NCBI GenBank assembly: GCA_017397925.1 | Contig: JAFQHO010000084.1 | Location: 108,033 to 172,032 of the forward strand | Direction: 5' to 3' | DNA length: 64,000 nucleotides | Origin: Ruminococcus sp. | GTDB taxonomy: Bacteria > Bacillota > Clostridia > Oscillospirales > Ruminococcaceae | Part shown: positions 5,718 to 61,952 of the stretch, one piece after another | Layout of the letters: every line of letters begins with the position of its first letter | Position numbering within the stretch: the stretch's first letter is position 1 | The notes under the pieces: generated by a model | The model's input: the letters and a program-made list of their open reading frames with translations, nothing else | Database searches by the model: none | What the model was told of the DNA's origin: nothing | Made by a program: the position numbers and the translations under genes

Positions 5718-5743
5718 AACCTGCCCGATTTCTCGGGCAGGTT
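5718..5743. terminator. Long hairpin between the GNAT and AraC-type genes
   Basis: Perfect 11-bp stem (5718-5728 with 5733-5743, AACCTGCCCGA/TCGGGCAGGTT) with a TTTC loop. On the minus strand the stem is followed by TTTTC, so it may terminate the convergent AraC-type gene as well as the GNAT gene. Confidence 0.6.
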
Positions 5744-5772
5744 AGTCTGTATAAAAAGGCATATTTTATTTA

Positions 5773-5793
5773 AGGGCGAGCAATGCTCGCCCT
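5773..5793. repeat. Dispersed palindromic repeat (GGGCGAGC type)
   Basis: AGGGCGAGCA/TGCTCGCCCT palindrome. The 20 bases before and into it (CATATTTTATTTAAGGGCGA) recur at 26714 in front of the left border of the short mobile element, and related palindromes occur at 7397, 11563 and 27047. Confidence 0.6.
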
Positions 5794-16476: not shown

Positions 16477-16504
16477 AGAACAGCGGCATTTCTGCCGCTG
16501 TTCG
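16477..16504. repeat. Left copy of the 28-bp direct repeat flanking the IS (terminator hairpin)
   Basis: Identical to 18043-18070. It is a perfect 10-bp stem AACAGCGGCA/TGCCGCTGTT with a TTTC loop; on the minus strand it is followed by a T-rich tract (CTTTTGTTTTTT), i.e. an intrinsic terminator that served the small gene at 18082 before the insertion. The upstream 16310-16476 is A/T-rich and holds no gene. Confidence 0.85.
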
Positions 16505-16569
16505 CAGACTGTCCAAAAACCCCGATTTCGGAGAGGAAATCGGGGTTAAAGTTTTAATTAAAGATAAAA

Positions 16570-17961
16570 TCAGGCATAAATTCTTGAAAACAGCGGAAAA
16601 ATGAAGTAAAAACGGAGATATTCGTCCTCATTCCATCTCCGAATTGCGAACTTTTTCAAGTTCATGGCAGCAAATTTAAGCCTAATCCAATTTGTTACAT
16701 GGGAGAGGCCTCTGTGAAGTGTATAACGCATGCCATATTTTTCTTTAGCATCTGCGAATACTCGCTCTATTGTTTCTTTTCGCTTCTCATAAAGCTTTTT
16801 GTACTTAGGAGTATGACGAATATCTTCGGCAAAATCAAGATATTTACTCCAGATATGCTTTGTTACTGTTTTCTCACACTTTGCATTTCTTGTACATACG
16901 CTTCTTGAGGGGCAATTTTCGCAGATTTTTGGATTGCTTTTGAATTCTCTGTATCCGTCACGGTTGATTGTTGAAAAGTTTAAAACTTGGTTTTCAGGAC
17001 AAATTACGCAGTTATAGTATTCGTCATAAATATAGTCGTATGGTCTGAGGAAACCTTTTACTCCCATTGGTCTTTTGTATGGCAATACGGGTATTCTTTC
17101 GTCATCAGTTACTTTTTTGCATATCCATGGTGTTTTATAGCCTGCATCCATTACACAGGCATTTATTTCGGGAAAACGCTGTACAAGTCTGTCATAAAGT
17201 CCGTCAAAAGCTACGCTGTCATGGATATTTCCGGGATTTACAGTTACATCCATAACATATCCATGCTTATCACAAGCTGTCTGTGCTGTATATGCCATAC
17301 ATTTTTTATGTTCGCCTTTGTGGAAAACTCCGCACTCAGGGTCTGTTGTTGATTCTGTTACTTCCTTCTCTTCTGGTTTCTTCGAACCGTCAAAAGGCTT
17401 CTTTCCATTTTTTTCACGTTCTTCATTTATTTCATTCATAAGCTGCTCTTCATATATTTTTGCAGCTTTGGGTACAGCTTTCTTTATTACTTTCTTTGTG
17501 TTTGCATTTGCTTTGATATGTGTACCGTCAATGAATACAGCCTCTGGTGAGAGATAGCCTGCATTATTAATTTCATCGAGAATCCAGAAGAATATTGCTT
17601 CTACTACTTCGGGAGTATATCTGTTCCTGAAATTATGACTAAGTGTTGAAAAGTGAGGTGTCTGCTCATTCAGAAGATAGCCTAAAAACCAGCGGTATGC
17701 TACGTTTAATCTTACTTCCTCCGCTGTTTTTCTGAGTGAGGGTATGCCAAAAAGATGCTGTATCAGTATCATTTTGAACAGCACCACTGGATCTATGCTC
17801 GGTCTTCCATTATCAGGACAATACAAATCTCCCACAAGGTCATATATATGGCTGAAATCTATTGCTCTATCTATTTTCCTCAGTATGTGATCTTCGGGTA
17901 CTAATTCCTCGATGCATATCATCTCATACTGTCCTCGTTCTTCTGCTTTTGTTGCTAGCAT
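16570..17961 (-). CDS. IS1182-family DDE transposase
   Basis: A 463-residue transposase. N-terminal DUF772-type region (RPSIDPVVLFKMILIQHLFG, FSTLSHNFRNRY), first catalytic Asp in AVFIDGTHIKANANTKK, second in CVMDAGYKTPWICKK, a zinc-ribbon-like block (CVICPEN...CENCPSRSVCTRNAKC) and the C-terminal Glu in RKETIERVFADAKEKYGMRYT, the DDE_Tnp_1_6 arrangement of IS1182. Intact and apparently full length. The frame is open upstream to 17997, but the -10 box lies there; AAGGTGAAGG precedes the ATG at 17961, which is therefore the start. Confidence 0.92.
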   Translation of the reverse strand: MLATKAEERGQYEMICIEELVPEDHILRKIDRAIDFSHIYDLVGDLYCPDNGRPSIDPVVLFKMILIQHLFGIPSLRKTAEEVRLNVAYRWFLGYLLNEQTPHFSTLSHNFRNRYTPEVVEAIFFWILDEINNAGYLSPEAVFIDGTHIKANANTKKVIKKAVPKAAKIYEEQLMNEINEEREKNGKKPFDGSKKPEEKEVTESTTDPECGVFHKGEHKKCMAYTAQTACDKHGYVMDVTVNPGNIHDSVAFDGLYDRLVQRFPEINACVMDAGYKTPWICKKVTDDERIPVLPYKRPMGVKGFLRPYDYIYDEYYNCVICPENQVLNFSTINRDGYREFKSNPKICENCPSRSVCTRNAKCEKTVTKHIWSKYLDFAEDIRHTPKYKKLYEKRKETIERVFADAKEKYGMRYTLHRGLSHVTNWIRLKFAAMNLKKFAIRRWNEDEYLRFYFIFPLFSRIYA

Positions 17962-17985
17962 TTCCTTCACCTTCCCTTTTATTAT

Positions 17986-18014
17986 ATTATACCACATTTA
18001 TGCAAAAATGCCAA
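17986..18014 (-). promoter_or_regulatory. Transposase promoter inside the IS right end
   Basis: Minus strand TTGGCA (18014-18009), 17-bp spacer, TATAAT (17991-17986), preceding the transposase start by 25 bp. Confidence 0.75.
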
Positions 18015-18042
18015 GCTTTCGCTTGACTTTTTCGACAGACTG

Positions 18043-18070
18043 AGAACAGCGGCATTTCTGCCGCTGTTCG
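18043..18070. repeat. Right copy of the 28-bp direct repeat flanking the IS
   Basis: Identical to 16477-16504. Here the hairpin is no longer followed by its T run because the IS end adjoins it. Confidence 0.85.
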
Positions 18071-26622: not shown

Positions 26623-26727
26623 GGCTTTTTTGAAATTTTATCATTTATTTATGTTGACGGTATACTTTAAAAAAATGCCGGTTGAACGCTGTCTTTTCAG
26701 TCTGTAGAAAAAACATATTTTATTTAA

Positions 26728-26746
26728 GGGCGAGTAATGTTCACCC
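26728..26746. repeat. Left palindromic flank of the short mobile element
   Basis: GGGCGAGTAATGTTCACCC, a degenerate member of the GGGCGAGC palindrome family, matching the right flank at 27047-27065 in 15 of 19 positions. Confidence 0.65.
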
Positions 26747-27046
26747 GAGCGTGTCGAAAAACTATAATAGCCCAATTAGGGCGTGATTCCAAAGGGCAGT
26801 GCCCTTTGGCGGAGTCCAGAGGTTGCGGGTGTCCAGTGGACACCTCTGCGAAGCAGAAGCAATGTCTGAGCCGACAGGCGAGTAAAGCCTCTGGCAGGGT
26901 GTGGGACAGCATCCCACATAGCGTTCAAGCGCCATGCAAGGGGTGAATTTTCAAACAGTCCGCAGGACTGTTTGAAAAGAGGGGACGCTCTGCAAGAGAG
27001 AGCGTCCCCTAAAAAAATATCTTGTTGTAACTTTTTCGACAGACTG
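26747..27046. mobile_element. 300-bp MITE-like element with IS1182-type ends
   Basis: The right end CTTTTTCGACAGACTG (27031-27046) is identical over 16 bp to the right end of the IS at 18027-18042; the left end GAGCGTGTCGAAAAAC (26747-26762) matches the inverse in 12 of 16. The interior has no credible gene but many inverted repeats (AAAGGGCAGTGCCCTTT near 26793; GGTGTCCAGTGGACACC near 26828; CAGTCCGCAGGACTG near 26956; AGGGGACGCTCT...AGAGCGTCCCCT near 26980-27009). Interpreted as a non-autonomous element mobilised by an IS1182-type transposase. It explains the gene-free region 26640-27130. Confidence 0.7.
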
Positions 27047-27065
27047 GGACGAGCAATGCTCGCCC
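27047..27065. repeat. Right palindromic flank of the short mobile element
   Basis: GGACGAGCAATGCTCGCCC, partner of 26728-26746 and of the palindrome at 5773. Confidence 0.65.
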
Positions 27066-27132
27066 ACAATTTCGGAACAAAATTCAGTTTTTCTGATAAT
27101 CGTGAGAGAGTTATTCCAATTTTTTTGTGTAA

Positions 27133-57149: not shown

Positions 57150-57236
57150 GCGGATATGGCGGAATAGGCAGACGCGCTGGCTTCAGGTGCCAGTCGGGGC
57201 AACTCGGTGCAGGTTCAACTCCTGTTATCCGCACCA
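57150..57236 (+). tRNA. tRNA-Leu (anticodon CAG)
   Basis: Eighty-seven nt with acceptor stem GCGGATA/TATCCGC, encoded CCA, D-arm GGCGGAATAGGC, anticodon stem CTGGC/GCCAG with loop TTCAGGT (anticodon CAG), a long class II variable arm (TCGGGGCAACTCGG) and T-loop GTTCAACTC. Perfect promoter upstream. Its 3' 54 nt plus one base are repeated at 59233-59287, marking it as an integration site. Confidence 0.95.
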
Positions 57237-60701: not shown

Positions 60702-61952
60702 ATGAAATCAATCACAGCCAAAGAAATCGCACAGCAGGTCGAGAGATATATTATTGAACGAGGGCAGAGTAAGAATTCACTTGATATGTATCACTACATA
60801 TTATCTGTCTTCATTCAATTCTGTGAAAATCATAATAATGGTAATTTTACCGAAGCTATGGGAAAAAGATGTATGAATGATCATTATGGAGTATCAGATA
60901 TTAACGCACATATAGATAGAAGACATACTCATACAAAAGCAGCTGTAAGAGTATATCACATGATGACAAGTATTTACAAAGGCGAAGCAATTAAATACAG
61001 ATATTTGCCCAATCGCGCGACTTATGAATTGGAATCATGCTTCAATAAAGCACTTACCGATTTTGAACTCACATATCAAAAATACGATTATTCTCCTAAG
61101 ACCATAGATGCGTACAAAAAAACAGCATACAAATTTTTAGTATATGCATCGCAGCATGGTTATACAGATTTTAAGAGCTTTTCTGCACAGCTTGTCTTGG
61201 ATTTCACACAGTCATTATCTGGATATACGGGAATAACCATAAGGCATAGCTTGTCAGAATTAAGGATATTTCTGAAATTTCTTCATACAGAAAGATATAT
61301 ATCCGTTTATCTTGATGATGTTGTAAAACCATTAAAAACCCGCAGTCAGCTTAAAATACCTTCTGTATGGCGAAAAGAAGAAGTTCTGAAAATGCTGTCC
61401 GCAATTGACAGAGGCAATCCGAGCGGAAAACGTGATTATGCAATGATCTTGTTAGTTGCCAGACTCGGACTTCGTATCAGTGATGTCAATACGTTGAAAT
61501 TTGATAATATCGACTGGAAAAAGAAAAGTATGCATATTATTCAGCATAAGACTAATGAACCACTGCATATTCCTCTTTTGAATGATGTTGGCTGGGCACT
61601 GATCGATTACATTAAAAACGGAAGACCATCCATTGAAACGGATTGCATTTTTGTAACTCATGTTCCGCCATTCAAGGAATTCAGTATGGACAACCATCAT
61701 CATAAAATGATTGAAAAGTATATGAGTTGGGCTGGGATTGCTGTTGCTGAAAAACGAAAGCTTGGTATGCACTCTCTCCGTCATACACTTGCAACAGTAA
61801 TGCTTGAAAATCATGAAGATTATCATAATATTTCAGCAATTATCGGACACAGTAGTGTCGATTCTACGCAGGTATATTTAAAAACGAGTGTAGAACTTCT
61901 TCGTGAGTGCACATTGCCTATGCCAGAGGTTAAGTCAGATGTTTCATTGTAA
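60702..61952 (+). CDS. Tyrosine recombinase, first of the trio (RitA-like)
   Basis: A 416-residue integrase with an N-terminal SAM-like arm-binding region (about 1-200) and a catalytic domain carrying ARLGLRISDVNTL (Arg I), LGMHSLRHTLATVM (HxLRH), IIGHSSVDSTQVYL (GHS and nucleophile Tyr). AAAGGACG ribosome site. It overlaps the second recombinase gene by 14 nt. It likely acts with the other two in transposing the element; the biochemical division of labour in RIT is not known. Confidence 0.88.
   Translation: MKSITAKEIAQQVERYIIERGQSKNSLDMYHYILSVFIQFCENHNNGNFTEAMGKRCMNDHYGVSDINAHIDRRHTHTKAAVRVYHMMTSIYKGEAIKYRYLPNRATYELESCFNKALTDFELTYQKYDYSPKTIDAYKKTAYKFLVYASQHGYTDFKSFSAQLVLDFTQSLSGYTGITIRHSLSELRIFLKFLHTERYISVYLDDVVKPLKTRSQLKIPSVWRKEEVLKMLSAIDRGNPSGKRDYAMILLVARLGLRISDVNTLKFDNIDWKKKSMHIIQHKTNEPLHIPLLNDVGWALIDYIKNGRPSIETDCIFVTHVPPFKEFSMDNHHHKMIEKYMSWAGIAVAEKRKLGMHSLRHTLATVMLENHEDYHNISAIIGHSSVDSTQVYLKTSVELLRECTLPMPEVKSDVSL

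Follow-up and report, generated by a model that had tools for sequence, protein, structure and literature searches.

A probable miniature member of the IS1182 group in Ruminococcus, bordered on both sides by its hairpin target

A 300-bp element of Ruminococcus (Table 1) is very probably a non-autonomous, MITE-type member of the IS1182 group: on the evidence of sequence comparison it is multi-copy, and its ends follow the IS consensus, approximately CAGNNTGTCNAAAAA. Judged from the arrangement of copies and flanks, this element and the related ISs insert at the foot of DNA hairpins, and the entire hairpin then stands on both sides. The enzyme responsible is probably an IS1182-type transposase acting in trans and reading its target as an extruded hairpin or cruciform. 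The common ends and target habit suggest that the element would be mobilised by the IS lying in the same window, the 64,000-nucleotide stretch of DNA analysed here. A preliminary description of the window had proposed such a MITE family, moved in trans and preferring hairpins; its observation was confirmed as a whole and its interpretation is supported and largely right.

The 300-bp element and the neighbouring IS

The right end of the element, CTTTTTCGACAGACTG, is found without mismatch at 27031-27046 and at 18027-18042, where it forms the right end of the IS (16/16 bp), exactly as first described. When up to three mismatches are allowed, this pattern has seven matches in the window against 0.67 expected, and 0/100 shuffles reach seven. 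At its left end (26747-26762, GAGCGTGTCGAAAAAC) the element agrees with the inverted right end in 12/15 positions. This left end had been called a degenerate inverse; inverse it is, but it is not degenerate, since the same left end is found in all four copies in this genome and is thus a characteristic feature of the family rather than the result of decay.

Near-identical palindromes had been noted at the borders of both elements. Those of the 300-bp element are alike at 15/19 positions, and those of the IS are a perfect 28-bp pair. The chance expectation of the GGGCGAGC palindrome in the window, at three mismatches or fewer, is 0. Because its two hairpin copies differ at 4/19 positions, the window copy of the element is probably old. 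The interior, described as gene-less and rich in inverted repeats, indeed has no Pfam match in the two ORFs that overlap the element, and the element with its palindromes folds far better than shuffled sequences on both strands (z -11.05 and -11.56).

Several attributes of a MITE are present together: ends in common with an autonomous IS of the same genome, a length of 300 bp with no transposase gene, and multiple copies with target duplication. Is the interior then an internal deletion product of the IS? This origin was rejected, as the IS is absent from the element's 15 matches in its own genome. The interior is instead part of a different, family-wide repeat, so that the element is MITE-like by its ends and not a simple deletion derivative.

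Table 1. Positions of the elements, target hairpins and modules in the window
Feature	Position	Strand	Remarks
Family A non-autonomous element, 300 bp	26747..27046	+	Left end GAGCGTGTCGAAAAAC, right end CTTTTTCGACAGACTG; full-length relatives in G699
Target hairpin of the element, left duplicate (GGGCGAGTAATGTTCACCC)	26728..26746	.	
Target hairpin of the element, right duplicate (GGACGAGCAATGCTCGCCC)	27047..27065	.	
Family B host element, with family A in its central hairpin	26698..27102	-	B right end 26698-26713; left end ~27087-27102, decayed
Module in loop of CCAGAGG/CCTCTGG hairpin	26821..26882	+	Separate repeat in other species
Core module, 125 bp, common to genus and family	26886..27010	+	
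Covarying double hairpin, 3' side of core	26945..27010	+	
Full IS, IS1182 family, likely transposase source	16505..18042	-	
IS1182-family transposase, 475 aa	16570..17997	-	NF033551 399.4 bits (cut-off 270); Pfam DUF772, DDE_Tnp_1_6
IS target duplication, left copy, 28-bp palindrome	16477..16504	.	
IS target duplication, right copy, 28-bp palindrome	18043..18070	.	

The IS belongs to the IS1182 family by its match to the family model, its terminal inverted repeats (CAGTCTGTCGAAAAAG / CAGACTGTCCAAAAAC) and its palindromic target, which is perfect on both sides. Only one full copy is present in the genome. The named records nearest to its transposase come from Clostridia and Ruminococcus MAGs, several of them from deer cecum, and no solved structure matches it at E <= 0.01. 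Two divergent IS1182-type transposases with 31-33% identity are encoded elsewhere in the genome (L032 on C38 and L033 on C44), and palindromic duplication was not found at either. At another locus (L009 1501-1560, C10:6980-7032), 33 bp from the right end of the IS lie beside a second IS1182-like end, perhaps the outcome of an insertion at a hairpin within the IS's own end. The window also carries, at 60702-61952, a tyrosine recombinase gene of the phage integrase family, downstream of a tRNA (57150-57233).

Hairpin targets and their duplication

Relatives of the transposase with at least 50% identity occupy 39 distinct loci, not counting L246, L266, L267 and L268, which repeat other listed loci or are second pieces of them. 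The preference for hairpins that had been suspected from the window alone is clear in these relatives: 61/66 scorable IS ends abut a hairpin (stem score of at least 7), compared with 1.2% for 1552 positions taken at random from these loci. The same hairpin stands at both ends in 21 of the 27 both-end loci (the window IS and 20/26 relatives), 19 of them recognized by script and two, L081 and L254, by inspection after the script had called their hairpins different. At L254 (G072:C44) one copy of the target palindrome is the reverse complement of the other, as seen in the loop, suggesting flipping during or after insertion. At the other six loci (L079, L105, L247, L248, L251, L265) the ends abut different sequences, each a hairpin by eye, the left one of L079 and the right one of L265 scoring only 4. 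Different hairpins at the two ends would be expected after recombination between copies or after intramolecular replicative events, and these six loci may bear the trace of rearrangements made by the IS.

The duplicated hairpins measure 16-39 bp, with a median of 27, and are mostly terminator-like; a T-rich tract, or an A-rich one on the opposite strand, accompanies 17/21 of them, a count made without a control. At three sites in G258, what seems to be a single IS is bordered by duplications that differ in length (20, 23 and 30 bp), and this speaks against one set length. Hairpins at so many IS ends, doubled whole and over such a range of lengths, point to a structure as the target, the length of which sets the length of the duplication. 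Further afield, seven plasmid copies were examined among the matches listed (the best 40 of 518 matching records). Palindromic duplication is present in 5/5 with 38-47% identity (two from E. faecium, ISBspe1, and one each from Rhizobium and Providencia) and in 0/2 with 24-27%. None was seen at seven divergent loci with 31-33% identity, nor at L255 (~50%) and L259 (36%), which fall below the 50% cut; the IS ends were not located at these loci.

The preliminary description had called for other copies with the same ends, and these exist. The exact left end of the element and its relatives (family A) occurs at four sites in the genome, namely the window, C26, C27:27831 and C27:50702. The last copy runs off the contig end, and the other three have the right end at 0-1 mismatch; two full-length copies are present in the sister species G699. 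Five other loci of the same genome carry the right end of the element and IS at 0-1 mismatch. A perfect 28-bp palindromic duplication borders the copy at C27:27831-28035, and a near-identical GGGCGAGCATTGCTCGC hairpin lies on either side of the C26 copy. Over the whole genome, 19/36 matches to the end pattern abut a hairpin against 3.7% of 2160 control positions, some of the 36 lying inside genes and being chance matches.

A second, smaller family of about 90-140 bp (family B) has left ends like GAGATTGTCGAAAAAC and right ends like CTTTTTATACAGACTG. Its copy at C9:13039-13178 is bordered by AGGGCGGATAATATCCGCCCC on both sides, the same habit as in family A; exceptions are L020, where the hairpin at one end differs from that at the other, and L015, with a hairpin at the left end only. 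A family B remnant, consisting of the end CTTTTTATACAGACTA and one GGGCGAGCATTGCTCGCCC hairpin, adjoins a terminator-like hairpin at 5743-5792 of the window. When the 300-bp element and one hairpin copy are taken out, the flanks in the window align with L015 and L020, which have a single central GGGCGAGCATTGCTCGCCC. The hairpin at the centre of a family B element was thus the target of the family A element, and the two elements now form a nested pair.

Empty sites with a single GGGCGAGC palindrome had also been anticipated. The paralogous copies L015 and L020 are such sites, and an orthologous locus in G693 lacks the element, but its hairpin differs. This locus (L296), orthologous on both sides with 84% identity up to 26712 and 93% from 27103, has only a short element with one central hairpin of different sequence. 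It was the only one of the 14 nearest loci to match on both sides, and an empty site that is orthologous and also has the hairpin of the window was not found among them. The short element of G693 (L296 2700-2830) has IS1182-like ends around its other central hairpin, as if a cassette had been exchanged.

In G699 the element is full length in two copies, L366 and L368, with matches of 94% and 86% identity over positions 1-300; both are bordered by perfect duplications, 20 bp long at L366 and 21 bp at L368. Among 40 loci fetched from G699 and G700, 24/38 scorable ends abut a hairpin (score of at least 6, with no control of their own). Both ends were found at five of these loci; the same hairpin is on both sides in three, and in the other two the match to the element is confined to a part of the right half. 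Across the genus, 97 of 100 copies of the core of the element were testable for flank duplication, and 14 score at least 14, compared with 0.15% of between-genome mismatched pairs and 1.25% of within-genome ones. All 14 duplications proved on inspection to be a palindrome or part of one, and two of them (L223, L224) do not abut an IS1182-like end. Such ends were found by pattern in 24/100 core copies, and 25/31 of them abut a hairpin (score of at least 6); in L224 and L203 the hairpin at one end differs from that at the other.

Does the element keep company with a transposase? Matches to the element (338-bp query) are present in 36/60 genus genomes. A transposase hit occurs in 9/36 genomes with the element against 4/24 without it (Fisher p 0.53), so that co-occurrence is not significant and gives no support to mobilisation in trans. 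G032, which is 99% complete, has elements with duplicated hairpins but no hit to an IS1182 transposase or to PF13751. Several contigs of G001 and G010 end inside IS copies, and draft assemblies may therefore hide transposases.

The interior of the element

The interior comprises modules that are also found elsewhere. The loop module (query positions ~90-155) is matched alone in G058, G031, G020, G042, G057 and G033, and the 125-bp core is a repeat separate from and wider than the element. A model of its double hairpin has matches in 31/247 family genomes and 19/126 sampled genera, with at most the best 20 candidates taken per genome. The alignment holds 66 sequences, the window's and 65 of the 77 distinct ones from 100 copies; 12 were left out for other length, a contig end or a changed 3' end (L141 and L226 among them), a choice that raised the paired percentage. 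In these 66 selected sequences 99.4% of cells are paired, against 43-59% in slid controls, and both sides have changed in 12/26 pairs. G-U cells outnumber A-C cells by 19 to 3 (p 0.0009), one pair supplying 7 of the 19, and by 11 to 3 when counted by pair position (p 0.057). This excess favours selection on an RNA of the + strand. No Rfam family matches at gathering score: the only one in the window is a tRNA, and the best weak match around the element reaches 21.5 bits where 60 are needed. The orientation of the core relative to genes has no bias, with 49 vs 41 on the left and 48 vs 40 on the right (91/100 copies usable).

The core also occurs without the ends seen in the window. By the pattern used, 76/100 fetched genus copies have no IS1182-type end. 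In G047 (L190-L201) 10/12 copies of the core are enclosed by inverted repeats of the ATAAATCATAATTTA type, a different vehicle. In G708 and G733 (L413-L432) no consistent inverted-end pair was found in the 19 scorable of 20 fetched copies; these two genomes have 80 and 72 matches to the element, mostly, among the matches listed, to the core alone. A tentative idea, and a rather doubtful one, sees in the core a cassette under selection, transcribed into RNA (or else terminator-like), which passes from one miniature-transposon vehicle to another, unrelated one. The vehicle would have IS1182-type ends in the window species and in G001, G009, G010 and G032, and ATAAATCATAATTTA repeats in G047, with other contexts in G708 and G733. 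The elements are strings of hairpins, so if this were true each insertion would add landing sites for a hairpin-seeking transposase, and the element population and the hairpin population would amplify each other.

Alternatives, mechanism and known systems

Which transposase moved the element? A different or now-lost IS1182-group enzyme, and not the one encoded at 16570-17997, may have done so, the IS in the window simply having similar ends. The elements of G032, where no transposase is detectable, agree with such an enzyme, as do the left end GAGCGTGTCG, which differs from both IS ends, and the single full copy of the IS in the genome. The identity of the right ends over 16 bp, the five more loci of the genome with that end at 0-1 mismatch and the target type common to IS and element speak for the IS itself, and we leave the other enzyme a substantial minority chance. 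It is also conceivable, if somewhat unlikely, that the core serves above all as a structured RNA or a regulatory cassette and lies in an IS1182-type MITE only incidentally. Two-sided covariation in 12 of 26 pairs, G-U excess and occurrence in 19 of 126 genera would suit a cassette of this kind, and so would the 76 genus copies without an IS1182-type end by pattern and the lack of consistent inverted ends in G708 and G733. Against it are the absence of orientation bias to the left-hand gene, the lack of an Rfam match, the reduced G-U excess by pair position, and the many copies with varied neighbours, which look like a mobile repeat. This explanation concerns the interior and is compatible with the preferred one, IS1182-type mobilisation, for the ends.

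The nature of the flanking palindromes is much less in doubt. They could adjoin the element by coincidence, REP-like hairpins being plentiful in the genome, with no target duplication at all; GGGCGAGC-type hairpins do recur in this genome and the two copies in the window are not identical. Such a coincidence is very improbable and was discarded on the flank-duplication controls and on the ISs, where the hairpin varies between insertions yet is the same on both sides in 21/27. Replacement of the stem-loop, by which the element would remove the hairpin it targets, is suggested by IS1272, of the same family and with the same target type (PMC5678879; PMC4923244). Here the hairpin is kept and doubled, in the same 21 ISs and in family A copies, and replacement, barely credible, was rejected for these copies. 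Mobilisation by an IS1182-type transposase with whole-hairpin duplication has points against it as well: the imperfect likeness of the window pair (15/19), the different hairpins in 6/27 ISs, G032 without a transposase hit, the lack of association between element and transposase over the 60 genus genomes, and the ends that do not abut a hairpin (only 19/36 end-pattern matches in the own genome and 24/38 ends in G699 and G700 do).

In the mechanism proposed, an IS1182-type transposase would bind both ends of the element in trans and recognise a target extruded as a hairpin or cruciform. The 3' ends of the element would be joined to opposite strands, each at a 5' foot of the stem, and gap repair would copy the entire stem-loop, so that the duplication would be as long as the hairpin and not of fixed length. 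The usual product of DDE transposases is a short duplication of constant length. In the window, the smaller element whose central hairpin served as the target had ends of the same type. The joining chemistry supposed here follows that known for DDE transposases and that drawn as pathway b in PMC5678879. Insertion at terminator hairpins probably does limited harm, because the distal hairpin copy would keep the terminator.

These observations have several implications. Duplication of a complete hairpin, its length of 16-39 bp given by the target, in IS relatives of Clostridia and also in five plasmid copies from Bacilli and Proteobacteria with 38-47% identity, is natural evidence for a structure-dependent whole-stem-loop pathway, drawn just as an alternative in the figure legend of PMC5678879. 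It suggests how such elements build up at terminators and opens the recognition of cruciforms by a transposase to direct test. It also provides a sequence rule for annotating such elements, the duplications of which could be missed by software that seeks short ones. For this bacterial family, the covarying core may represent a new family of RNAs or repeats.

The RUP, BOX and SPRITE repeats of pneumococcus resemble the window element as small, nested bacterial repeats that land inside each other and in some cases may contain terminator-like hairpins, and differ in that no whole-hairpin target duplication is described for them in the passages concerned of a review that nowhere mentions IS1182 (PMC10969869). 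Among ISs, ISPse1 of Paracoccus and ISCaa15 of Amoebophilus were assigned to the IS1182 family by their authors and are reported with 4-bp direct repeats (PMC3281130; PMC3196728), where the window IS has a whole hairpin; on these reports, the family is heterogeneous in target duplication. Like the window IS, ISBspe1 (L407, 39.5% identity) and the E. faecium plasmid copies L406 and L412 (46-47% identity) have whole palindromes of ~20 bp on both sides; unlike the 300-bp element, they are autonomous ISs, in Bacilli. The name ISEfa7 is borne by some other E. faecium matches and not by L406 or L412. In ISfinder, direct-repeat lengths of IS1182 members are variable and reach some tens of bp, so palindromic duplications may be recorded there. 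In the open-licence papers searched, no data-backed report of whole-hairpin duplication or of the present MITE family was found.

The nearest parallel in target choice comes from staphylococci, where IS1272 and TnSha1 of the IS1182 family insert at hairpins, often terminators, with no sequence preference (PMC5678879; PMC4923244). Palindromic targets are also reported for some IS1182 members (Siguier et al., 2015, as cited in PMC5678879 and PMC4923244). Family, 16-bp ends and a liking for terminator hairpins are thus common to IS1272/TnSha1 and the elements described here. The fate of the target separates them: IS1272 is reported to delete or replace its hairpin, with no target duplication (PMC5678879; PMC4923244), duplication of the whole stem-loop being drawn only as the alternative pathway b in the legend to Fig 13 of PMC5678879, whereas in the window-type elements the whole hairpin is duplicated.
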